Shown here: one piece after another, positions 143 to 9,304 of the stretch
How the letters are laid out: each line of letters opens with the position of its first letter
Numbering within the stretch: the stretch's first letter is position 1
From: Alphaproteobacteria bacterium
GTDB lineage: Bacteria; Pseudomonadota; Alphaproteobacteria; UBA8366
Direction: 5' to 3'
Length of the DNA: 9,304 nucleotides
Assembly (NCBI GenBank): GCA_029861675.1
Contig: JAOTYV010000188.1
Span: 1-9,304, forward strand
Made by a program: the position numbers and the translations under genes
The notes under the pieces: model-generated
What the model saw: the letters and a program-made list of their open reading frames with translations, nothing else
The model's database searches: none
Told to the model about the DNA's origin: nothing

Positions 143-164
143 CAGCGGGTCAGCGGGTCAGCGG
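143..164. repeat. 8-bp tandem repeat across the ettA stop codon
   Basis: CAGCGGGT occurs at 143-150 and 151-158, and a partial CAGCGG follows at 159-164. The array covers the last codons and TGA of ettA and the start of the intergenic spacer. The EttA C-terminus still ends in the expected Leu-Thr-Arg, so the duplicated unit lies downstream of, or silently at, the normal end. It is probably a small slippage repeat with no specific function. Confidence 0.7.
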
Positions 165-1829
165 CTTATACTTAATCCGATGCGGCTGCTCGGCGGCGGC
201 GCCGAGCCGGCGTTTGCGGTCCGCCTCGTAGTCGTCATAGTTGCCCTCGAACCAAACCACCCGGCTGTCGCCTTCGAAGGCGAGGATGTGGGTGGCGATG
301 CGATCGAGAAACCACCGATCATGGCTGGTCACCAGCGCGCATCCGGCAAAATCGAGCAGCGCCTCTTCGAGCGCGCGTAAGGTATCCACGTCGAGATCAT
401 TGGTCGGCTCGTCGAGGATAAGAACGTTGGCGCCGGTGCGCAGCAGCTTGGCCAGATGGACGCGGTTGCGTTCTCCACCCGAGAGCTGTCCGACCTTCTT
501 TTGCTGATCGGGCCCGCGAAAGTTGAACGCACCGACATAGGCGCGGCTCGGCATCTTGCGCTTGCCGAGATCGATCTCCGCCTCGCCCTGGCTGATTTCC
601 TCCCAGACGTTCTTATCGGCCGCAAGCGAATCGCGGGACTGGTCGACATAGCCAAGCTCCACGGTGTCGCCGATCCGCAAGGTGCCCTGGTCCGGCGTTT
701 CGTCACCGACGATCATGCGCAGCAAGGTGGTCTTTCCGGCGCCGTTCGGGCCAATAATCCCGACAATGCCGCCGGGCGGCAGTTTGAAGCTGAGGTCCTC
801 GAACAACAACCGGTCGCCATATCCTTTCGCAAGGTCGGTCGCCTCGATCACCAGGTCGCCCAGCCGCTCGCCGGCCGGAATGATGATTTGCGCCGTATCG
901 GGCGCGCGATCGGCGCTCTCGGCGAGAAGCTTCTCATAGGCCGTGATGCGCGCGCGCGACTTGGCCTGCCGCGCCCGAGGGCTTGCGCTGATCCATTCGC
1001 GTTCGCGGGCAATGGTGCGCATCCGCGCCGATTCCGTCCGCTGTTCATGCTCGAGGCGTTTCTGCTTCTGTTCCAGCCAGGCGGAATAATTCCCCTCATA
1101 GGGAATGCCCTGGCCGCGATCGAGCTCCAGAATCCATCCGGTAACATTGTCCAGGAAATAGCGGTCATGGGTGACCATCACCACGGTGCCCTCGTATTCC
1201 CGCATATGACGTTCCAGCCAGGCGACCGATTCCGCATCCAGATGGTTGGTCGGTTCGTCCAACAGCAGCAGGTCCGGCTTGCTCAACAGCAGCCGGCACA
1301 GAGCCACCCGGCGGCGCTCGCCGCCCGAGAGCGTCGCCACGTCGCGATCGCCCGGCGGACAACGCAGCGCATCCATGGCGATTTCGACGGTCCGGCTGAG
1401 ATCCCAGGCGCCGGCGGCATCGATTTTTTCCTGCAGCGCGGCCTGTTCCTCGATCAGCGCGGTCATCTCGTCCGGGTCGGTGACCTCGGCGAATTTCGCG
1501 CTGACCTCTTCGAAACGATCGACCAGGGCCTTCTGCTCGCCCAGTCCTTCCAGGACATTTTCCTCGACCGTCTTGTCGGAGTCGAGCGTGGGCTCCTGTT
1601 CCAGCATGCCGACGGTCGCACCCTCGGCGGCCCATGCTTCGCCGTTAAATTCCTGATCGATACCGGCCATGATGCGCAGCAGGGTCGACTTACCCGCGCC
1701 GTTCTGACCAAGCACACCGATTTTTGCGCCAGGGAAAAATGCCAGCGTGACATCCTTCAGGACTTCCCGATTGCCGGGATAGACCTTGGTCATATTTTTC
1801 ATTACGTAGACATATTGGTACGAAGCCAT
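150..1829 (-). CDS. ettA: Energy-dependent translational throttle protein EttA (ABC-F ATPase)
   Basis: This is a soluble ABC-F protein with two ATPase domains and no membrane domain. In E. coli, EttA binds the ribosomal E site and gates entry into elongation according to the ATP/ADP ratio. Domain 1 has Walker [10 protein letters not shown] (41-49), an arm insertion of about residues 95-140, signature LSGGE (167-171) and Walker B ending in D191-E192. The charged linker that contacts P-site tRNA spans about 240-320. Domain 2 has Walker [10 protein letters not shown] (360-368), signature LSGGE (449-453) and D473-E474. The length of 559 aa and the C-terminal IKYKPLTR are normal for the family. 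The ATG is supported by GAGGAA (1839-1844) with a 9-nt spacer and by the N-terminal alignment with known EttA. A 98-bp gap separates it from the upstream exonuclease gene, so it may have its own promoter, but none is convincing. Confidence 0.96.
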
Positions 1830-1927
1830 CGTCGGTCGTTCCTCGATCTATAAAGAATTCAGAAGTTGCCGGCGGCGCTGCGTCGGCTGGCCAGGCGCGG
1901 GTTACATAGCCAATGTGGCGACCGCAA

Positions 1928-3304
1928 TCAATCGTCGCGCGCGATCCACCAACCCGATTCCCGCTGCAGCTTTACAATATCCTTGCGGCGGCGGCTAAAG
2001 ATCATTGCGTCGCCGAATGTCCGGACGCCCTGATCCTCGAGGACCGGCAGCAGCCGCGCGAACAAATCAGCGGTCACCAGGCTGTCGCCCAACGCCGTAT
2101 GCCGCCCGCGCGCGGTGACGCCGAATTCGGCGGCAAGCCTTTCCAGCTCGAGGCTGGGTACGCGCGGCCGCAGGGCGCCCGCCAATCGATAGGTGCAGAG
2201 ATAGGGCGGCGGGTCCCAGACAATTCCGGCCTCCCGCGTACTGCGCAGCAAATGGGCGATATCGAATCCGATGTTGTGCCCCACCAGGACATTCGCCTCC
2301 AGATGCACCGCCAATTCCGGCCACAATTGGGAGAACACCGGCGCCGCGGCCACCATTTCGTCCGTGATCCCGTGAATTGCGGTCGACCGCGGCGGGATCG
2401 GCCGATCCGGGTTGACCAGGTGATCGATCGTCCGGCCAGGGTAAATCGTCCCGCCCGCCATGCGCACACCGCCCACCGAGACGATCGCATCGCGCGCGAC
2501 ATTGAGTCCCGTGGTCTCCAAATCAAGGACGAAAATCGGCAACTCGGCGAGCGGCGTCGATGGCGTTATGGCAATCGGCGGCGGCGGCTCGGCAAGCAGG
2601 CTCAGATCGTGCTGGAGCGCCCGGTCCGCAGTCGATAGGCCCGCCCGGAACACGAGGACAGCCCCCTGCCCCGACCCGATGAGAGCGAGCCGCACGGGCA
2701 GCTCGCGCCCGTCCACCGCGGCGACCGTGGTATCGACGGATCCGCCGGCGCGGGACGCCGCGTCGAGCGCCCCGTCAAGGGCGGGCCGGGTAATCGCATC
2801 GAACACGCTGGTGCCGGCCTCAAGCGCCGTAACACCGAGCAGGTCCTGCGCCGCGGCGTTCACTAGGCCGATTTGTCCGGCGGTGTTGATGACGATGATG
2901 GCTTCCGGGATTGCGCCGATCACCGTCTCGAGCTGCCGCGCCGGCGCGTTTTGGCGCGCAAGCCGGCCGGTCAAGAGTGCATCGATGGCGTCGGGAATAT
3001 CCTGGACTTCCCCGGGCAGCGTTGCCGACAGCCCCGTCGGCAGTTCTTCGACGTGATCGGTCTGCAGCATGACAATGAAGCCACGCAGCCGGTTAAAGGC
3101 GGTAAAAATGCGGTCGATCCGTATTGCCGTCCAAATAAAGACGGGAACGCCAATCGCCAGTAACGCAATCGCCCAGCCGTTCCGCAGCGCAGCCGGCACA
3201 GAGACGGTATCGTCGCCGAATTCGCCAAGCAGCACCAATCCGGCAAGCAGGGCCGCCGACGCGCCGAATGCCAGGAGAATTGCATGCCGTAGTCGCTGTC
3301 GCAT
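1928..3304 (-). CDS. Membrane-anchored PAS-domain DnaQ-like 3'-5' exonuclease
   Basis: The 458-aa protein has three parts. Two hydrophobic helices (about 7-27 and 44-62) form an N-terminal membrane hairpin. A PAS-like domain follows at about 126-222, in which the stretch AIPEAIIVINTAGQIGLVN is typical. A DEDDh exonuclease domain occupies about 256-425. Its motifs are complete: Exo I D261-L-E263-T-T-G, Exo II with D348 in GHNIGFD, and Exo III H402 and D407. It is therefore predicted to hydrolyse single-stranded DNA, RNA or short oligonucleotides with two metal ions. The membrane anchor and sensor domain make a replication proofreading role (DnaQ) unlikely. An in-frame TAA four codons before the ATG makes 3304 the earliest usual start; GAGGG lies 3 nt before it, a rather short spacing. 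It follows the DUF294 gene by 58 bp and is probably the last gene of the signalling operon. The natural substrate is unknown. Confidence 0.88.
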   Translation of the reverse strand: MRQRLRHAILLAFGASAALLAGLVLLGEFGDDTVSVPAALRNGWAIALLAIGVPVFIWTAIRIDRIFTAFNRLRGFIVMLQTDHVEELPTGLSATLPGEVQDIPDAIDALLTGRLARQNAPARQLETVIGAIPEAIIVINTAGQIGLVNAAAQDLLGVTALEAGTSVFDAITRPALDGALDAASRAGGSVDTTVAAVDGRELPVRLALIGSGQGAVLVFRAGLSTADRALQHDLSLLAEPPPPIAITPSTPLAELPIFVLDLETTGLNVARDAIVSVGGVRMAGGTIYPGRTIDHLVNPDRPIPPRSTAIHGITDEMVAAAPVFSQLWPELAVHLEANVLVGHNIGFDIAHLLRSTREAGIVWDPPPYLCTYRLAGALRPRVPSLELERLAAEFGVTARGRHTALGDSLVTADLFARLLPVLEDQGVRTFGDAMIFSRRRKDIVKLQRESGWWIARDD

Positions 3305-3362
3305 GGTCCCTCGCCGTTACGGCATCTATCGGTGAAAGTTGCGGCGCGGCATCATCGGCACG

Positions 3363-4820
3363 TCAAAACACGTCGCCGGTGAAGTCGCTTTTCAATCGCT
3401 CGCGCAACGCCTCGATCGCCCTGAAGGAATCGACCAGCACATCGCGCTCGCGCTCCCTCAGCGTGTCCGGATGAACATAGTTGCTGACCGGCTTACCCGC
3501 CTTGTAATCGGCGATTTGCTGGCGCAACAGCAAGCCCGTGAGATGGCCGAACGCCGCCGTCAAATGGTCATGGACATCCGAATTGATGACGCCGGATTCG
3601 TGCAACTTCCCAAGTCGCAGGGTTGTGGAAATTTCCGGCAGGCCCGTCCGCAGCGCAAGAAGGCGCGTCGCCTGAACCAAGGGGAGTGTGCCCGTGTGTT
3701 TCAAATTGATCTTACCGAGATGGTCGGGATTGGTTTTCTCGGTGACGAACCGCCCGAACCAGCCAAGCGCCACGCCATATTCCTCGCCATCGAGATAGAG
3801 CGCCTCGAGAAAGGCAGGGCTGGACTTCAGCGCATCGGTGACATACGCGCGCAAATCCGCGGCGAGATCGGGCGCGCCATAACAGGCGCGAAAATCGAAG
3901 AAGATATCGGCAAGCCGCAGGGCAACGGTACTGCGCCGGCGCAACCAGCCAGACAGCTGCGCCCGCCATTGAGTGGCGGTCTTGCGCCACAGCGGATTGG
4001 TCGCCATGACATGGCCCTTGCACAAAGGAAATCCCACCGCGTCGAGATCCCGCGTCACCCGGGCGCCCAATTCGATAAACCATGGATCGATCGTGCCATG
4101 CGCCGCATCCGGGTAGTCGTCGAGAATGATGCCGTTGTCCTGATCGGGATACAGGAAACTTTCCCCGCGCCCGCCGGATCCCATAATGATGAAGGAGAAC
4201 GCCGCCGGCGCGGGTCCCCAACGCTCCCCGGTCATGGCCGTGCAGTGATTTTCCAGGATACGCCGGTGGATATCCCGGTTGATATGGGTCAGCAGGCCCT
4301 GAATTTCCGGTGCCGGGACGTTGTCCGCAAACAGTTCGTCGGCCAGATCGATCTGCGCCGATTTCACCTCGCGGATACCGTGCAGGGTTCCTTCCTGGGT
4401 CAACCGGTCAATTTGCCCGAGCAATCGTTCGGACGCCGCCGCAAGCGCCTGGTCCAGATGCAGCATGCCCACCGGCTTTCCGGACCCGTCGACCACCGGG
4501 AAATGATGCAGCTTAAATCGCCGCATCCGGGCGATCGCGTGATACAGGAAGTCATCCGCCGCCACCGTCATCACCGGCCGCGACATGACGTCGGCGACCG
4601 GCGTTTCGGCAGCGGTCCGGAATGTGAGGCGGCGAACCACATCATGTTCGGTGAGAATGCCGCAGATGCGCCCATCCGGTCCGGTCACCGCCGCGGCGGT
4701 GGTCTCGGCCTCGACCATGCGGGCGACCACGTCGCCGCACCTGTCGCCGCCGGCGACAACAATGGGCGCCGGCGCCATATGCCGGCACACGAGTTCCCGA
4801 AATACTGCCGTCCAGGGCAT
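3363..4820 (-). CDS. CBS-pair / DUF294 putative nucleotidyltransferase
   Basis: From the chosen ATG the protein has 485 residues. Two CBS motifs lie at about 13-72 and 77-134, a pair that usually binds adenine nucleotides and acts as an energy or ligand sensor. A DUF294 putative nucleotidyltransferase domain follows at about 145-285, with GSGGRGE (214-220) and DQDN (226-229). These resemble the G-S and D-x-D metal-binding motifs of GlnD-type and polymerase-beta-like transferases. The C-terminal part, about 340-480, fits the DUF294_C substrate-binding domain. The pattern suggests transfer of a nucleotide to a protein or small molecule, but no target is known. The start at 4820 is preferred because GGGAGA (4826-4831) lies 5 nt upstream; an in-frame ATG at 4958 would overlap the kinase gene by 109 bp. 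The gene follows the kinase by 29 bp and was probably co-transcribed with it. Confidence 0.9.
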   Translation of the reverse strand: MPWTAVFRELVCRHMAPAPIVVAGGDRCGDVVARMVEAETTAAAVTGPDGRICGILTEHDVVRRLTFRTAAETPVADVMSRPVMTVAADDFLYHAIARMRRFKLHHFPVVDGSGKPVGMLHLDQALAAASERLLGQIDRLTQEGTLHGIREVKSAQIDLADELFADNVPAPEIQGLLTHINRDIHRRILENHCTAMTGERWGPAPAAFSFIIMGSGGRGESFLYPDQDNGIILDDYPDAAHGTIDPWFIELGARVTRDLDAVGFPLCKGHVMATNPLWRKTATQWRAQLSGWLRRRSTVALRLADIFFDFRACYGAPDLAADLRAYVTDALKSSPAFLEALYLDGEEYGVALGWFGRFVTEKTNPDHLGKINLKHTGTLPLVQATRLLALRTGLPEISTTLRLGKLHESGVINSDVHDHLTAAFGHLTGLLLRQQIADYKAGKPVSNYVHPDTLRERERDVLVDSFRAIEALRERLKSDFTGDVF

Positions 4821-4831
4821 TATCGTCTCCC
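4821..4831 (-). promoter_or_regulatory. Ribosome binding site deciding the DUF294 start
   Basis: On the minus strand GGGAGA (4831-4826) precedes the ATG at 4820 with a 5-nt spacer. It favours this start over the upstream in-frame ATG at 4958, whose extra 46 residues are Arg-rich and lie inside the kinase coding region. Confidence 0.7.
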
Positions 4832-4849
4832 GGAAATGGCAACCATGCG

Positions 4850-7588
4850 CTAGCTCACGGCCGCGGAGAAGGGAACGGTGAAGACGAAGCGCGCGCCGGC
4901 ACCACGCGTCCGTTCCACCCAGATACGCCCACCGAAATATTCGACGATTTGACGGCAAATCGGCAGGCCAAGCCCGGTGCTGACCGGCTTGCTGGTCGCG
5001 GTCGGATCGACCTGTTCAAACTTCTCGAATATCCGTTGTTCGGCGCCCTGCGGGATTCCGGGGCCGTTGTCTTCGACGCTGACCAAAAGACCTTCCAGCG
5101 TTTCCTCGACATCAATGATCACCTTTGGTTCGGTCCCGTCGCAGAATTTGACCGCGTTGGACAGCAGATTTACCATCACCTGAATAAACCGGTCGCGATC
5201 GGCGCGCACGCGGCGCAAAGCGTCCGGAACCCGAATCTGCAGGTCCATGTGGCTTTCCGAGAGAAGGCTGCCGGTCGCCGCAACGGACTCTTCGATCACT
5301 TCCTTGGGATCGATATCCGATATCTGCCATTCGCCACGGCCGGCTTCGAGTTTCGCGAGATCCAGCAATTGGTTGATGAGCCGGGTCAGGCGCTGGCTTT
5401 CCTTGATGATGATGCCAAGGAACTCCTTCCGCTGTTTGGTGCCGAGTTCCGAGCGGTCGTACAGAATTTCGCTGAACGACCGTATCGACGTCAGCGGCGT
5501 GCGCAGTTCATGGCTGACCGTCGACAGAAAATCGTCTTTCAGCCGATCGAGTTCCTTCAGCCTTTCGTTCGCCGCCTGCAGCTCCGCGGACGCAATTTCG
5601 AGCTCCTGCGATTTTTCTTCCAGCTGATGGCTGTATTCGATCACCTGCGAGGTCTCGTCGAGTACCCGCATGACCTCGTCCATACTGGCGGTCTCCCCCT
5701 TGACCACCGTACCCACCATGACCCGCGCGGACGCGGCGCCGATCGCGCCGGCCAAAAGGCTCTCGGTGAAATGCACCAGGCCGGGGTCGGCCTCGCTGAC
5801 CATTTTGAGGCTGATTCCCGTGCGCTTCCTGTACTGCTCATACGCCTGATCGGCGCGCCGGCGCCCGACGAACCGCATCACGAGATTGTATAGGTCGGAG
5901 AACGTTGCGGAGCCGTGCCATACCCGCGACCGGCTTGCCGTTCTTCGCGTCCGGTACACATCGACAAAAAGGGTTGCCTGAATCCGTTCCAAGGCGGTTT
6001 GCCGGCTCGCCAGCGACACCAGGACATACCCGCCCACATTCAACAACATGCTCCAGAACAAGGCATGCGACAGGTTGTCGAAGCCTTTGAGCCCCATTAG
6101 CTCATAGGGCTTCAGCAAGGTGATGTCGAACGGGCCGGAATCGATGAAGCTGATCGGGAGCCAGCCGGAGATGGCGAGCGACGGCAGCAGCAGCGTATGG
6201 ATCCAGACGCCGAAACCGAGCGACAGCCCCACCAGCGCGCCCTTCCGCGTGCCGCCTTTCCAAAAGATCCCGCCGATAATCGACGGGCCGAATTGCGCCG
6301 CCGCGGCGAACGACAGGAGCCCGACCGTCACCAATGTGTAGGATTCGCCGATATACCGGAAATAGCCGTACCCGAACAACAGGATGAAGATGATGCTGCC
6401 ACGCCGGATCGCCAGCAGCAAGCCGCTCAAATCACCTTTTTCGGTCAAGCGAAGCCATCGCAGGCGAAGCAGAACCGGCATCACCAGGTCATTGCAGACC
6501 ATCGTGCTGAGCGCGATCGTGGCCACGATCACCATCCCGGTCGCCGCCGAAAGTCCGCCGATGAAGGCAAACAACGTCAATGCCTCCTGATGGTCCGCCA
6601 TCGGAACGGTGAGCACGAACGTGTCCGCATCGACCACACCGCCGGAAAACATCAACAGGCCCCCCAACGCAATCGGCAGGACGAAGATATTGATCGTCAG
6701 CAGGTAGAGCGGGAACAGCCAAACAGCTTTATCGAGATGGCTTTCGTCGAGATTTTCCACCGCACTTACCTGAAACTGGCGCGGCAGGCATATTATGGCC
6801 GCCATGGACAGCACGGTCATGGTGACCCACTGGCCATAACTGCTGGCGGTGCCGATGGTCGTCAGCGACGAATACTCGGGCAGCGCCCGCGCCCGCTCGA
6901 AGAGGTCGGCAAACCCGTCATAGAGGCCGAAGGTGACGAACAGGCCGACCGACAGAAACGCCAGCAACTTGACCACGGATTCGAAGGCGACCGCCACCAC
7001 CATGCCCTCGTGATGTTCGCTGGCGTCGATATGGCGGGTACCGAACAAGATCGTGAACCCGGCCAGTACGGCGGCAACGTAAAAGGCGGTGTCGTGGGTG
7101 ACCGGCAGATTGCCGAGGCCGGACGGCATAACGATTTCGGGATAGTTGAGCAGCACGTTGAAACTGGTCGAAACCGCCTTTAGCTGCAGCGAGATATACG
7201 GCATGATTCCAACCACCGCGATGATCGTCACCAATCCGCTCAACAGTGTGCTCTTGCCGTAGCGCGAAGAGATGAAATCAGCGATCGACGTGATGCGGTT
7301 GACCCGGGTGATCCGGATGATCTTGCCGAGCACGAACCACCAGAGCATGAAGACCAGCGTCGGCCCCAGATAGATCGGCAGGAAATCGAGCCCGCTCGAC
7401 GCCGCCCGCCCGACACTGCCGTAATATGTCCAGGAAGTGCAATACACCGCGATCGACAGGGCATAGATGTAGGGGTTGTTCGCAATGCTGCGGCCTTCGT
7501 CGGCGCGCTTGTCGGCGAAATAGGCGATCGCGAACAGGAGACACAAATAGCCGAACGAAACCAGCAGGACGACCCAGTTTTGGAGCAT
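4850..7588 (-). CDS. Sodium:solute symporter-like sensor histidine kinase (SSS-STAC-HisKA-HATPase)
   Basis: This 912-aa protein fuses a transporter-like sensor to a kinase. Residues 1 to about 530 form about 13 hydrophobic helices of the SLC5/PutP type. Residues about 550-630 resemble the STAC linker found between SLC5 domains and two-component modules. A coiled coil (about 640-690) leads into HisKA with phosphoacceptor H693 in SHELRTP. The ATPase domain has an N box with N807 and N811, G1 DNGPGIP (840-846), F box FEKFEQ (854-859) and G2 GLGLP (872-876). No PAS domain and no C-terminal receiver are seen, unlike some CbrA/CrbS relatives. Known relatives sense or import histidine (CbrA) or control acetate use (CrbS); the ligand here is unknown. 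The ATG lies 2 bp after the stop of the small membrane protein and has no strong Shine-Dalgarno of its own, which suggests translational coupling. The adjacent receiver protein is the likely partner. Confidence 0.93.
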   Translation of the reverse strand: MLQNWVVLLVSFGYLCLLFAIAYFADKRADEGRSIANNPYIYALSIAVYCTSWTYYGSVGRAASSGLDFLPIYLGPTLVFMLWWFVLGKIIRITRVNRITSIADFISSRYGKSTLLSGLVTIIAVVGIMPYISLQLKAVSTSFNVLLNYPEIVMPSGLGNLPVTHDTAFYVAAVLAGFTILFGTRHIDASEHHEGMVVAVAFESVVKLLAFLSVGLFVTFGLYDGFADLFERARALPEYSSLTTIGTASSYGQWVTMTVLSMAAIICLPRQFQVSAVENLDESHLDKAVWLFPLYLLTINIFVLPIALGGLLMFSGGVVDADTFVLTVPMADHQEALTLFAFIGGLSAATGMVIVATIALSTMVCNDLVMPVLLRLRWLRLTEKGDLSGLLLAIRRGSIIFILLFGYGYFRYIGESYTLVTVGLLSFAAAAQFGPSIIGGIFWKGGTRKGALVGLSLGFGVWIHTLLLPSLAISGWLPISFIDSGPFDITLLKPYELMGLKGFDNLSHALFWSMLLNVGGYVLVSLASRQTALERIQATLFVDVYRTRRTASRSRVWHGSATFSDLYNLVMRFVGRRRADQAYEQYRKRTGISLKMVSEADPGLVHFTESLLAGAIGAASARVMVGTVVKGETASMDEVMRVLDETSQVIEYSHQLEEKSQELEIASAELQAANERLKELDRLKDDFLSTVSHELRTPLTSIRSFSEILYDRSELGTKQRKEFLGIIIKESQRLTRLINQLLDLAKLEAGRGEWQISDIDPKEVIEESVAATGSLLSESHMDLQIRVPDALRRVRADRDRFIQVMVNLLSNAVKFCDGTEPKVIIDVEETLEGLLVSVEDNGPGIPQGAEQRIFEKFEQVDPTATSKPVSTGLGLPICRQIVEYFGGRIWVERTRGAGARFVFTVPFSAAVS

Positions 7589-7590
7589 CG

Positions 7591-7833
7591 TTAGCCGCCG
7601 TCCCGGCCGCGCGACGCTCCATCTCCGCGACTCGCCGCCTTGCGCCGGTTCACCAGGTAGGCGACCAGAGCGATCGCGACGCCCCAGCTCGCAAAGACAT
7701 AGACATAGAGTGCCGGAACACCGAACAGCGACACATTCACGCTAAACAAGGACAACAATGGCGGATTGAACAACAACACCCCCACGGCGAAAAGCGCGAG
7801 GACCGTTTCCTCCATTGCGCCAGGGTTGTTCAT
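7591..7833 (-). CDS. Small two-helix membrane protein preceding the symporter-kinase
   Basis: The 80-aa product has two hydrophobic helices, about residues 10-29 and 40-61, separated by a short loop with FGVP. A basic, Gly-rich tail follows. I recall similar small proteins just upstream of SSS-type kinases, but I cannot name a characterised family. The ATG at 7833 is chosen because AAGGAA (7842-7847) lies 8 nt upstream. A longer reading from 7899 adds 22 charged residues and has no comparable ribosome site. Its stop is followed after 2 bp by the kinase ATG. The coupling suggests equimolar synthesis, so it may be an accessory subunit of the transporter-like domain, as small partners are for some solute symporters. 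That role is inference. Confidence 0.75.
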   Translation of the reverse strand: MNNPGAMEETVLALFAVGVLLFNPPLLSLFSVNVSLFGVPALYVYVFASWGVAIALVAYLVNRRKAASRGDGASRGRDGG

Positions 7834-7847
7834 AACCGATCTTCCTT
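7834..7847 (-). promoter_or_regulatory. Ribosome binding site of the small membrane protein
   Basis: AAGGAA (7847-7842, minus strand) sits within a purine-rich run 8 nt before the ATG at 7833. It supports this start over the in-frame ATG at 7899. Confidence 0.65.
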
Positions 7848-7927
7848 CTTCCCGCTCCCAAGGTGTCCGCCGGTTTCCGACCGCGGCCCGATCCGGCAAG
7901 ACCCGTTATGCGTCGCCGTCAGAAGCT

Positions 7928-8296
7928 CTACAGCGCCAGCAAACTCTTAACCTGCGCCGTCACCTCCCGTGTCGAGAAGGGCTTTATGATATACCCATCC
8001 GCTCCCGCTTCGAGGCCTTTTTGGCGTTCCTCTTCGCGTCCCTTCGCGGTCAGCATAACGATTTTCATGTCGCCCCAGGCCGCATTGGCGCGGATGGCGC
8101 GGCAAACGCTGTAACCGTCCCGTTTCGGCATCATGACGTCCAACAGCACGAGATCCGGCATCGCCTTGCCGATTTCATCCAACGCCTCCTCGCCGTTCCG
8201 GGCGACCCGCACGTCGAGCTTCAACTGTTTCATGAGGAATTCAAGGGACAGGACGATATTGGGTTCGTCATCGACAACGAGCACCGACCGGCTCAT
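7928..8296 (-). CDS. Single-domain CheY-like response regulator
   Basis: The 122-aa protein is a receiver domain and nothing else. The acidic pocket is D9 and D10, the phosphoacceptor is D53 in LLDVMMP, and the switch residues T83 and K105 (in KPF) are present. It should be active in phosphotransfer and is presumably phosphorylated by the SSS-type kinase encoded 94 bp beyond the end of this gene, after the small membrane protein. There is no DNA-binding or enzymatic output domain, so it must act by protein contact or pass phosphate to another protein. The ATG is preceded by GGGGAGG (8305-8311) with an 8-nt spacer. It is the first gene of the proposed operon. Confidence 0.93.
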   Translation of the reverse strand: MSRSVLVVDDEPNIVLSLEFLMKQLKLDVRVARNGEEALDEIGKAMPDLVLLDVMMPKRDGYSVCRAIRANAAWGDMKIVMLTAKGREEERQKGLEAGADGYIIKPFSTREVTAQVKSLLAL

Positions 8297-8319
8297 GACC
8301 TTTGCCTCCCCTAATCTCC

Positions 8320-8361
8320 TAGACCATTTCTTGTATAAATTGCCTCAAGTGAAATGGTCTA
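8320..8361. repeat. Perfect 11-bp inverted repeat with 20-nt spacer
   Basis: TAGACCATTTC (8320-8330) is matched exactly by its reverse complement GAAATGGTCTA (8351-8361). The arm centres are 31 bp apart, close to three helical turns, so both arms face the same side of the DNA. The predicted promoter lies between and within the arms. This fits an operator bound by a dimer or by two cooperating dimers. As RNA it could form a stem with a 20-nt loop, but no U-run follows, so it is not a terminator. Confidence 0.8.
8332..8361 (-). promoter_or_regulatory. Candidate sigma70-type promoter of the response regulator operon
   Basis: On the minus strand, TAGACC (8361-8356, four of six matches to TTGACA) and TATACA (8337-8332, close to TATAAT) are separated by 18 bp. 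Transcription would begin near 8325, giving a leader of about 28 nt that contains GGGGAGG 8 nt before the ATG. One arm of the inverted repeat covers the -35 box and the other covers the expected start point. The call rests on motif matching only. Confidence 0.42.
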
Positions 8362-8365
8362 TCTC

Positions 8366-8381
8366 TTTGCTTTTACGCAAA
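8366..8381. promoter_or_regulatory. TTTGC-N6-GCAAA dyad, possible ScfR-type operator
   Basis: TTTGC (8366-8370) and GCAAA (8377-8381) form an inverted repeat with a 6-nt centre. It lies 4 bp upstream of the candidate -35 box and is centred about 48 bp before the expected transcription start, a position used by activators. ScfR-family regulators such as PccR and RamB are reported to bind TTTGCAAA-like sequences, and a gene of that family is immediately upstream. The half-site match is only partial. Confidence 0.35.
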
Positions 8382-8390
8382 TACGCCGCC

Positions 8391-8409
8391 GCGAACCGTT
8401 CCGGTTCGC
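8391..8409. repeat. Perfect 8-bp inverted repeat, 3-nt centre
   Basis: GCGAACCG (8391-8398) and CGGTTCGC (8402-8409) flank TTC. The element could be a hairpin or a protein-binding dyad. No T-run follows on either strand, so an intrinsic terminator is not supported. Confidence 0.6.
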
Positions 8410-8473
8410 TCGGGATTTGCTCCAGGCGCGCGTTGGCCCGCACTCACTGTGCTTGAATTTGCCGACGCGCACC

Positions 8474-8489
8474 ATTGCCCACGGGCAAT
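8474..8489. repeat. 16-bp palindrome ATTGCCC-AC-GGGCAAT
   Basis: Two perfect 7-bp arms surround a 2-bp centre. The compact two-fold symmetry is typical of an operator for a dimeric regulator. The binding protein is unknown. Confidence 0.6.
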
Positions 8490-8519
8490 TCGATCTTGGT
8501 CAATTGTGCGCAGAGTTGG

Positions 8520-8549
8520 GGCGCCGCGCAACATGGCAGGCGCCGCGCA
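8520..8549. repeat. 11-bp direct repeat GGCGCCGCGCA
   Basis: The unit occurs at 8520-8530 and 8539-8549, a 19-bp period with an 8-bp spacer. It may be an iterated binding site or a small duplication in GC-rich spacer DNA. Confidence 0.55.
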
Positions 8550-8603
8550 CCCTGCGACGCCAATTCGCGCGGGCGGCGACCATTGTGTAATCGGCGCCAT
8601 GAT

Positions 8604-8650
8604 AAAAAAAGCATTTTAGACGGGCGCGGTATTGTCTGCCTCGGCGCCCG
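8604..8650 (-). terminator. Weak candidate terminator at the end of the ScfR-type gene
   Basis: In the minus-strand transcript a 7-bp stem (8650-8644 with 8627-8621, CGGGCGC/GCGCCCG) with a 16-nt loop precedes a run of seven T (8610-8604). The run begins 10 nt after the stem, farther than in a classical intrinsic terminator, and the stem lies inside the coding end. Read-through into the response regulator therefore remains possible. Confidence 0.28.
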
Positions 8651-9304
8651 CTGGCCGCAGGATCGGCGGATGGGCCCGCTGATTGCAATCCAAACGGTCG
8701 CACAACCGGCATGTAACGCCAGCCGGCATGACGATCGATTGCGCCTCCAGGTCAATGCCATCGCTATACGAAAATTGATTCGCCTGGGTCACGTCGCAGC
8801 CGATCGCGACGACATAATGGCCGATCGCATCATGCGGTCCGAAGCCCGGTTTCGATACCGACCGCGCCACCGTAAAAAACGTCGCGCCATCCGGCATCCG
8901 GGCGACCTGCCGGCTGACCTGTCCCGGCGTCATGAACGCCGTATGAACGTTCAGCCGGGGACAGAGGCCGCCATAGCGTGGCATGCGCATCCCGGACAGT
9001 GAAAAACGTTTGGAAATATTGCCGGCAATATCCACGCGGATGAGATGTATCGGCACGCCACTCGCGTCCGGCTGCTGCAATGTCGTCATGCGGTGACAGA
9101 CCTGTTCGAAACTGACCTGAAACCGGTGCTGCAGCGAATCGATGTTATAGCGCGTAGCCAATACCGCTTCGTGAAATGCCTCGTAAGGCATCAGCAGCGC
9201 GCCGGCGAAATACCCCGCCAAGACGTCGCGGCACAGCGCCCGTCCGGTTTCTCCTACGATCAAACGGTCGGGGATCGCGCGCTCGATCACCGTCGCGTAG
9301 TCGC
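8616..9304 (-). CDS. ScfR-family (PccR/RamB-like) short-chain acyl-CoA transcriptional regulator, C-terminal part
   Basis: The frame is open to the right edge, so this is the last 228 or so residues of a longer protein; family members are usually about 470 aa. The first visible residues (DVLAGYFAGALLMPYEAF) match the end of an ImmA/IrrE-like domain after its usual HE-x-x-H region, which lies outside the window. The rest fits the DUF2083 C-terminal domain, including the cysteine cluster CRLCDRLDCNQRAHPP near the end. Family members have an N-terminal XRE-type helix-turn-helix and control propionyl-CoA carboxylase, methylcitrate or glyoxylate-cycle genes in response to acyl-CoA. The HTH is not visible here. 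The GTG at 9290 is not the start, because the frame continues upstream with plausible residues. It ends 319 bp before the response regulator and reads in the same direction. Confidence 0.85.
   Translation of the reverse strand, partial: DYATVIERAIPDRLIVGETGRALCRDVLAGYFAGALLMPYEAFHEAVLATRYNIDSLQHRFQVSFEQVCHRMTTLQQPDASGVPIHLIRVDIAGNISKRFSLSGMRMPRYGGLCPRLNVHTAFMTPGQVSRQVARMPDGATFFTVARSVSKPGFGPHDAIGHYVVAIGCDVTQANQFSYSDGIDLEAQSIVMPAGVTCRLCDRLDCNQRAHPPILRPAGAEADNTAPV

Follow-up and report, generated by a model that had tools for sequence, protein, structure and literature searches.

The 9,304-nucleotide contig JAOTYV010000188.1 from an alphaproteobacterium (hereafter the window, meaning the whole stretch that was analysed) carries on its minus strand a locus with a sensor histidine kinase whose N-terminal part resembles a transporter. 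An initial annotation had described five genes as one unit; these genes are two modules, and the described unit is one gene too short, having left out the ScfR-type transcription factor, the likeliest transcriptional output. The sensor module is composed of this factor, a single-domain response regulator (RR), a small two-helix membrane protein (SM) and a non-hybrid kinase of the SLC5 type. The second module consists of a CBS-DUF294 protein and a membrane PAS-DEDDh exonuclease. We interpret the whole as a short-chain-acid response locus in which RR would exert its output through partners bearing a DHp domain and the DUF294/exonuclease pair would carry out nucleotidylation, a reading to which we give an even chance. 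A more specific proposal, that RR docks on, or phosphorylates, a copy of the kinase DHp in ScfR (elsewhere in a pseudokinase-exonuclease), letting one factor integrate outside acid and inside acyl-CoA, falls a little short of that. The gene count, the single direction and the gaps of 94, 2, 29 and 58 bp (with the starts as used) were all reproduced when the coordinates were recomputed, and the domain reading held in Pfam (Response_reg; HisKA and HATPase_c; CBS-DUF294; PAS-RNase_T), with a two-helix protein free of family matches as the fifth product. The initial observation was thus confirmed, and its interpretation was supported in part only.

Two sets of loci (L numbers) were compared. The kinase-locus set held the best 80 of 583 kinase relatives, at 58-82% identity, and is biased toward the window's kinase class; neighbouring genes in it were detected by tblastn, and as many contigs were short, the resulting counts are lower bounds. 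Clustering of open reading frames covered 81 loci, these 80 and the window. The class-wide sample was an even draw of 96 genomes (G numbers) of Alphaproteobacteria, the class of L001, and includes its centre genome G001; one of its loci, L117, is the same as L007 of the kinase set. Kinases were classed as hybrid or non-hybrid by frame length and matched span, the hybrid open frames being 1103-1284 residues long. Protein-database searches with SM, the fused protein described below and ScfR scored 7995-7998 candidates, with the best 120 listed for each.

The ScfR/RamB-type gene (8616..9302, minus strand) lies 319 bp from RR and is cut by the window edge, leaving the C-terminal 228 residues. These contain the end of the IrrE-like domain (PF06114, 45 bits) and the ScfRs domain (PF09856, 181 bits), carry the CX2CX4C motif as CRLCDRLDC, and scored 216 bits against the NCBIfam RamB model, below that model's cut-off of 700. 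The nearest relative, the full-length ScfR of L001, is 62% identical and carries a DHp insert (HisKA 37.4 bits, cut-off 26.9) with Tyr in place of His; the window's own ScfR would carry this insert as well. All nine ScfRs clustered in kinase loci bear a DHp-like domain, Pfam HisKA was above its cut-off in all five ScfRs tested, and HisKA and ScfRs occurred together in 117 of the best 120 homologues listed from the protein database. In L001 (positions 3172-6947), L004, L007 and L008, ScfR is also flanked by a recurrent four-gene set, a second SSS symporter with a conserved protein of 68-80 residues and proteins of 153-231 and 201-270 residues (the last TPR-looking).

The association of the DHp insert with the kinase was tested independently of the presence of the kinase: all ScfRs matches of the class-wide sample were taken, which gave 32 genes in 26 of the 96 genomes. 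DHp was present in 12 of them and absent from 20. A non-hybrid kinase was found in the fetched stretch of 9 of the 12 DHp-ScfRs versus none of the 20 others (Fisher p 7.8e-6), and of 10 after a wider fetch at one locus (L114), none of the 20 being extended (Fisher p 1.0e-6). Of the remaining two, L118 has its kinase on another contig of the same genome, and L115 is on a 3.6-kb contig. Counted per genome, with kinship uncorrected and G001 among the positives, the kinase was present in 11 of 12 genomes with a DHp-ScfR versus 3 of 84 without (p 4.8e-11). RR had a tblastn match at 11 of the 12 DHp-ScfR loci (one of OmpR type) versus two of the 20 non-DHp ScfR loci, at 27% and 33% identity.

When eight DHp-ScfRs were aligned against 14 canonical ScfRs, DHp appeared in all eight as a clean insertion of 60 columns, placed between the HTH and the IrrE-like part. 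In the predicted model of the ScfR P0241, the insert forms a helical hairpin (residues 135-160/166-202) with pLDDT of 56-84. The model matched the M. tuberculosis regulator 6cyy (TMt 0.86), and the 50 Foldseek matches listed were PrpR-type, IrrE and HTH proteins, with no kinase among them. In 15 of 17 loci, the cognate kinase was nearer to the ScfR DHp than were all 25 other kinases compared, a test that favours kinases because the aligning profile was built from them; the 25 were pooled from two genomes, DHps of other kinases that scored no more than 20 bits were dropped, and the 17 loci include one contig twice. Six DHp positions, which we took as regulator contacts after work on HK853-type kinases, were identical to the cognate kinase in 8 of the 17 loci, one of them counted twice and three being close Kiloniella relatives. 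In both genomes tested (G001 and G083), the ScfR DHp was the second-best match to the kinase DHp profile, after the kinase itself, with a lead over the next-ranked match of only 1.3 bits in G001 (where 30 of 31 HisKA matches were used) and of 20.9 bits in G083. In a DHp tree built without exonuclease rows and without the nine kinase-locus ScfRs, 10 ScfR DHps formed one clade (97/98), and its placement by the window's kinase was weak (56/85, 75 columns). We infer that RR signals by docking on the ScfR DHp. Our literature search for papers linking a short-chain fatty acyl-CoA regulator with a histidine kinase found none, though other wording or further papers may exist; in the available part of PMC10370305, the Paracoccus ScfR Pden_1785 is placed next to a two-component system and its domains are not described.

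RR (7928..8296, minus strand; 122 residues, Response_reg at residues 5-116) has the key residues D9, D10, D53, T83 and K105 and no output domain. Among the 52 clustered regulators shorter than 180 residues, the window's included, D10, D53, K105 and P106 were kept in all, and position 9 was D in 32 and E in 20. We considered whether RR could be the detached REC of a hybrid CrbS; this was not supported, as the hybrid frames searched with RR yielded a REC in only two cases, scoring 24 and 13 bits.

A second candidate partner of RR emerged from the exonuclease gene. In the window (1928..3304, minus strand; 458 residues), the protein has two N-terminal hydrophobic helices, PAS_8 (26.5 bits, cut-off 21.8) and RNase_T (111.5 bits), that is, a short form. 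Its DEDDh motifs are DLETTGL at 261, GHNIGFD at 342 and GRHTALGD at 400, and the residues D-E, D, H and D are intact in the window protein and in the alignment of 44 relatives, window included. Of these exonucleases of kinase loci, 40 carry a DHp-like segment before the exonuclease and some of them an ATPase-like segment too; the four exceptions are L001, L007, the window and L009, a fragment at a contig end. None of the 40 long forms has His at the phospho-His position (29 E, 4 R, 3 D, 2 Q, 1 T and 1 gap), and by their sequences such proteins (e.g. L033:13190-15355 and L043:13166-15340) are pseudokinase-exonucleases. For 22 of the 40, a clustered regulator is the next listed gene. Forms without DHp make up 13 of the 16 exonuclease frames of the class sample and are common beside DUF294, where they are the rule, and beside symporters; the idea that the window exonuclease had lost a pseudokinase part was dropped. 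The three DHp-bearing ones (L116, L265 and L277) are all in kinase loci, and L117, also a kinase locus, has none. As the long exonuclease of L116 adjoins DUF294, neighbouring genes do not separate the long and short classes cleanly.

The kinase itself (4850..7588, minus strand; 912 residues) matches PDB entry 10ed_A ('histidine kinase', 606 residues) over residues 7-473 with E 1.7e-74. The transporter-like reading of its N-terminus in the initial annotation therefore stands, despite the lack of a Pfam SSF match to this part; no STAC model was among the Pfam and NCBIfam matches listed for the window, and no STAC reference was compared. The DHp His is His693, conserved in 80/80 aligned kinases, and the ATP-binding motifs are present. 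Pfam gave no PAS and no C-terminal REC match, and the protein ends in HATPase_c. The 10ed entry gives a solved histidine kinase structure of the SLC5 type, which is a possible template for the window's sensor.

By tblastn, the 80 kinase loci contained SM in 78, RR in 72, the exonuclease in 44, DUF294 in 38 and ScfR in 9. Neighbour clusters among the 81 loci were acetyl-CoA synthetase (acs, 29), an SSS symporter (30) and a DUF4212 small subunit (26); the acs and DUF4212 labels were assigned by eye, and for the symporter two examples were backed by a Pfam SSF match. The idea that the kinase takes the place of the transporter was not borne out, since many relatives retain a separate SSS symporter nearby. 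In Zoogloea loci, L034, L036, L059 and L064 among them, the genes run acs, SM, kinase, RR, exonuclease, CBS-DUF294, DUF4212 and symporter, with RR uncalled in some. The window and L001 have in common the order ScfR, RR, SM, kinase, DUF294, exonuclease and EttA. The acid link rests on the acs, symporter and DUF4212 neighbours, the ScfRs domain and the CrbS/R precedent, and the acid would most likely be of acetate type. In several Burkholderiales-type loci (L046:13159-13830, L065, L066, L070 and others), a regulator that looks OmpR-like is convergent with the cluster and separates it from the DUF4212-like and symporter genes. These convergent regulators of 222-232 residues were set aside as candidates for CrbR, as by eye they look to be of OmpR type, with no search made.

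The precedent also raises the possibility that the window encodes an ordinary CrbS/CrbR acetate system, in which the kinase would signal to a LuxR-type CrbR encoded elsewhere, RR would be a phosphate sink and DUF294 and the exonuclease would be merely co-regulated. In Pseudomonas, CrbS/R (MxtR/ErdR) controls acs, actP and the CBS/exonuclease pair (PMC9927547, available part; PMC8402216; PMC5715377), and acs-labelled and symporter genes adjoin many kinase loci. We nevertheless consider this improbable, with no search for a LuxR-type CrbR made in the genome of L001. The class sample had non-hybrid kinases in 14 of 96 genomes and 12 hybrid CrbS-like kinase genes in 11, with one genome having both. 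The window's class has no fused REC, and RR recovered hardly any REC in hybrid frames, as given above. SM lies directly 5' of 13 of the 14 non-hybrid kinases (the exception being G026) versus none of the 11 hybrid loci examined, out of 12 hybrid genes. The class co-occurs with DHp-ScfR as counted above, and DHp-ScfR was found in 0/10 hybrid-only genomes, a figure not significant alone (p 0.35).

SM (7591..7833, minus strand; 80 residues from the ATG at 7833, the open frame extending further 5') directly precedes the kinase. Neither Pfam nor NCBIfam gave a match to the window's SM at E 0.1, and at least 6690 homologues were found at E ≤ 0.01 among the 7995 candidates scored in the protein database. 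Residues invariant in 20/20 members include P25, F30, P40, F47 and W50, and dN/dS (nonsynonymous to synonymous substitution) was 0.05-0.42 in 31 pairs from 12 chosen genes in two groups, pairs of unequal length or near saturation having been left out. This indicates purifying selection and, together with the conservation, argues for a function of the peptide itself. Three of the 20 members matched DUF3311 weakly (best E 0.0016), which is only suggestive of kinship at the sequence level; the SM model gave a best match of 5.8 bits at loci with DUF3311, and DUF3311 genes occur in only 2 of the 96 class genomes, too few for a profile. Homology to DUF4212 found no support (comparison with the DUF4212-like cluster, prob 0.4).

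The CBS-DUF294 gene (3363..4820, minus strand; 485 residues from the ATG at 4820, the open frame extending further 5') encodes two CBS domains, DUF294 and the helical DUF294_C domain in Pfam. The DUF294 motif GSGGRGE..DQDN spans residues 214-229, and the GS motif and DxD metal site were invariant in 22/22 DUF294 sequences. The predicted fold matches the GlnE and DrrA adenylyltransferases, including the helical substrate domain, which favours the initial suggestion of nucleotide modification as the DUF294 output, in the form of a protein adenylyltransferase fold. The pair formed with the exonuclease probably tags proteins with nucleotides. The two genes had also been proposed to belong together, which the class sample bears out. 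Strong DUF294 genes (>100 bits) numbered 19 in 18 of the 96 genomes, after 33 weak rows (≤29 bits, mostly frames of ~900-1200 residues, which we presume to be GlnE/GlnD) were dropped before counting. An exonuclease accompanied DUF294 in 16 of the 18 genomes and was fused to it in two of these; the kinase locus L002 has such a fusion too. A single protein combines exonuclease, CBS pair and DUF294 at L263:4726-6981, L268:5473-7731 and L002:6808-9108, and the names given to its homologues include DNA polymerase III epsilon and DUF294 protein. Our search for papers pairing DUF294 with an exonuclease found none, though other wording or further papers may exist. The initial annotation had placed such genes beside actP/yjcH in gammaproteobacteria, and a DUF294-type CBS gene with an RNase_T gene is so placed in P. 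aeruginosa PAO1 in the available part of PMC9927547. Its word 'uncharacterised' was too strong, both genes of the pair having already been deleted in P. putida.

A different output would be RNA decay, with sensor phosphorylation altering the degradation of acid-metabolism mRNA through the exonuclease, and DUF294 tailing or tagging RNA rather than protein. The intact DEDDh motifs are compatible with it, as are the pseudokinase character of the long relatives and the position of 22 of 40 directly beside the clustered regulator, and the available part of PMC9927547 speculates on mRNA decay. We assign this alternative a low probability.

Conservation as a single five-gene unit was not borne out: strong DUF294 lay within 10 kb of the non-hybrid kinase in only 4 of the 14 kinase-bearing genomes (G001, G011, G083 and G091). 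The initial annotation had named a lack of joint conservation in relatives as speaking against its unit, and this was found in part. The figure suits a loose neighbourhood, in which both modules serve organic-acid uptake and the sensor has no functional contact with DUF294 and the exonuclease; so does the more frequent occurrence of the latter two near an SSS symporter without the kinase in the class sample. However, the linkage recurs in alpha- and betaproteobacterial loci with differing gene orders, the fused exonuclease-CBS-DUF294 gene of L002 lies directly 5' of the regulator, and in Pseudomonas CrbR/ErdR controls the pair. A neighbourhood of this loose kind is, in our view, somewhat unlikely.

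We must also note several observations that weigh against our interpretation. The window's ScfR is cut before the DHp region, and its N-terminal HTH, like any insert, falls beyond the window edge. Three of the 14 genomes with a non-hybrid kinase (G060, G091 and G055) are without a DHp-ScfR; G091 and G055 carry a DHp-bearing long exonuclease beside the regulator, and G060 has neither in the fetched stretch. No RR match was found at L121, and the regulator of L115 is of OmpR type. Only two or three of the six contact positions agree in L119, L120, L121, L122 and L144, a separate group; in L119-L122 the match is no better than that of the best other kinase, and in L144 it is level or nearly so. 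The DHp His is retained in 10 of the 12 sample ScfRs but is Phe in L114 and Tyr in L001, and by eye the Pro of HELRTP is gone from the ScfR DHps, as is the Glu from many of them. In consequence, acceptance of phosphate by the ScfR DHp is doubtful, and docking alone fits better. The Kiloniella loci (L010, L013 and L014) run ScfR, RR, SM, kinase and EttA without DUF294 and exonuclease, and the second module is thus optional. The acs gene is absent from the window and was not found in the stretch of L001. Mutants of the CBS gene in P. putida and P. fluorescens have no clear growth phenotype (PMC9927547, available part; PMC5715377).

The two-module acid response that we favour builds on directly observed genes, domains, motifs, associations, a fusion and the DHp insertion, and might work as follows. 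The SLC5-type domain, with SM as its probable small membrane partner, would sense the acid or its passage and set the kinase, and His693 would pass phosphate to Asp53 of RR. Lacking an output domain, RR would act by binding partners with a DHp-like domain: in Alphaproteobacteria, a CoA-ester-responsive ScfR with inserted DHp, and elsewhere the exonuclease in its long, pseudokinase-bearing form. CBS-DUF294 would be a GlnE-like nucleotidyltransferase, its CBS pair probably reading adenine nucleotides, and may nucleotidylate a protein that takes up or activates the acid; the PAS-DEDDh exonuclease would take part in this step, perhaps by taking the nucleotide off again. Receiver-only regulators often leave their output open, and the genomes studied here point to one partner and one domain, which can be tested directly. 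If correct, a transcription factor has gained two-component input by capturing a kinase DHp domain, and carbon-acid sensing is tied to a probable protein-nucleotidylation pair whose halves occur fused in nature.

Beyond the second module lies EttA, the ABC-F translational throttle (150..1829, minus strand; NCBIfam TIGR03719, 961 bits), 98 bp past the exonuclease gene and in the same order in L001. It is probably a neighbour rather than a member of the pathway. Strong EttA matches (>450 bits) near the kinase recur in 11 of the 80 kinase loci, without explanation. The plus strand has long frames antisense to EttA (456-1853, 465 residues) and DUF294 (3339-4853, 504 residues), probably shadow frames of GC-rich coding DNA. 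A consensus scan of 1700-9304 yielded two promoter-like sites (2.6 expected) and nine terminator-like sites (8.0 expected), which, being at chance level, gives no sign for or against one transcript.

Among known systems, CrbS/CrbR resembles the window in its SLC5-type kinase and in the linkage of acs, symporter and CBS/exonuclease genes by neighbourhood or control. CrbS, however, is a hybrid with REC and PAS and acts with the LuxR-type CrbR, whereas the window's kinase is non-hybrid and comes with SM and a receiver-only RR; the DHp-bearing ScfR found in relatives of the window system is not a CrbS/CrbR feature either. With no REC and PAS, and with a receiver-only regulator, SM and ScfR, the window system was not filed as CrbS/R, although it probably serves the same purpose. 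In P. putida, pp_0354/pp_0353 form an operon of a CBS protein and an RNase_T exonuclease that is an ErdR target (PMC9927547, available part; PMC8402216); in the available parts of these papers and of PMC5715377, the exonuclease mutant is slow on pyruvate and the CBS mutant has no phenotype. That operon lies near glcB and is not reported beside the kinase.

CbrX-CbrA also has a small two-helix open reading frame directly 5' of an SLC5-type kinase. CbrX was judged relevant only for translational coupling (PMC6591292, available part), a conclusion from which SM departs with its invariant residues and its dN/dS range. The ScfRs share the HTH, IrrE-like and ScfRs domains and the CX2CX4C motif with RamB, PccR and PrpR, and the DHp-ScfRs differ from that family by 60 extra columns, a DHp hairpin resembling this kinase class. 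CBS-DUF294 has its predicted fold in common with the glutamine synthetase adenylyltransferase GlnE and with DrrA, and differs in having the CBS pair in front and in an identity of 9-14%. The locus is real and its parts are partly known; as a variation on the SLC5-kinase theme it brings a readily testable proposal for the output of RR, a mechanism in which we have moderate confidence.

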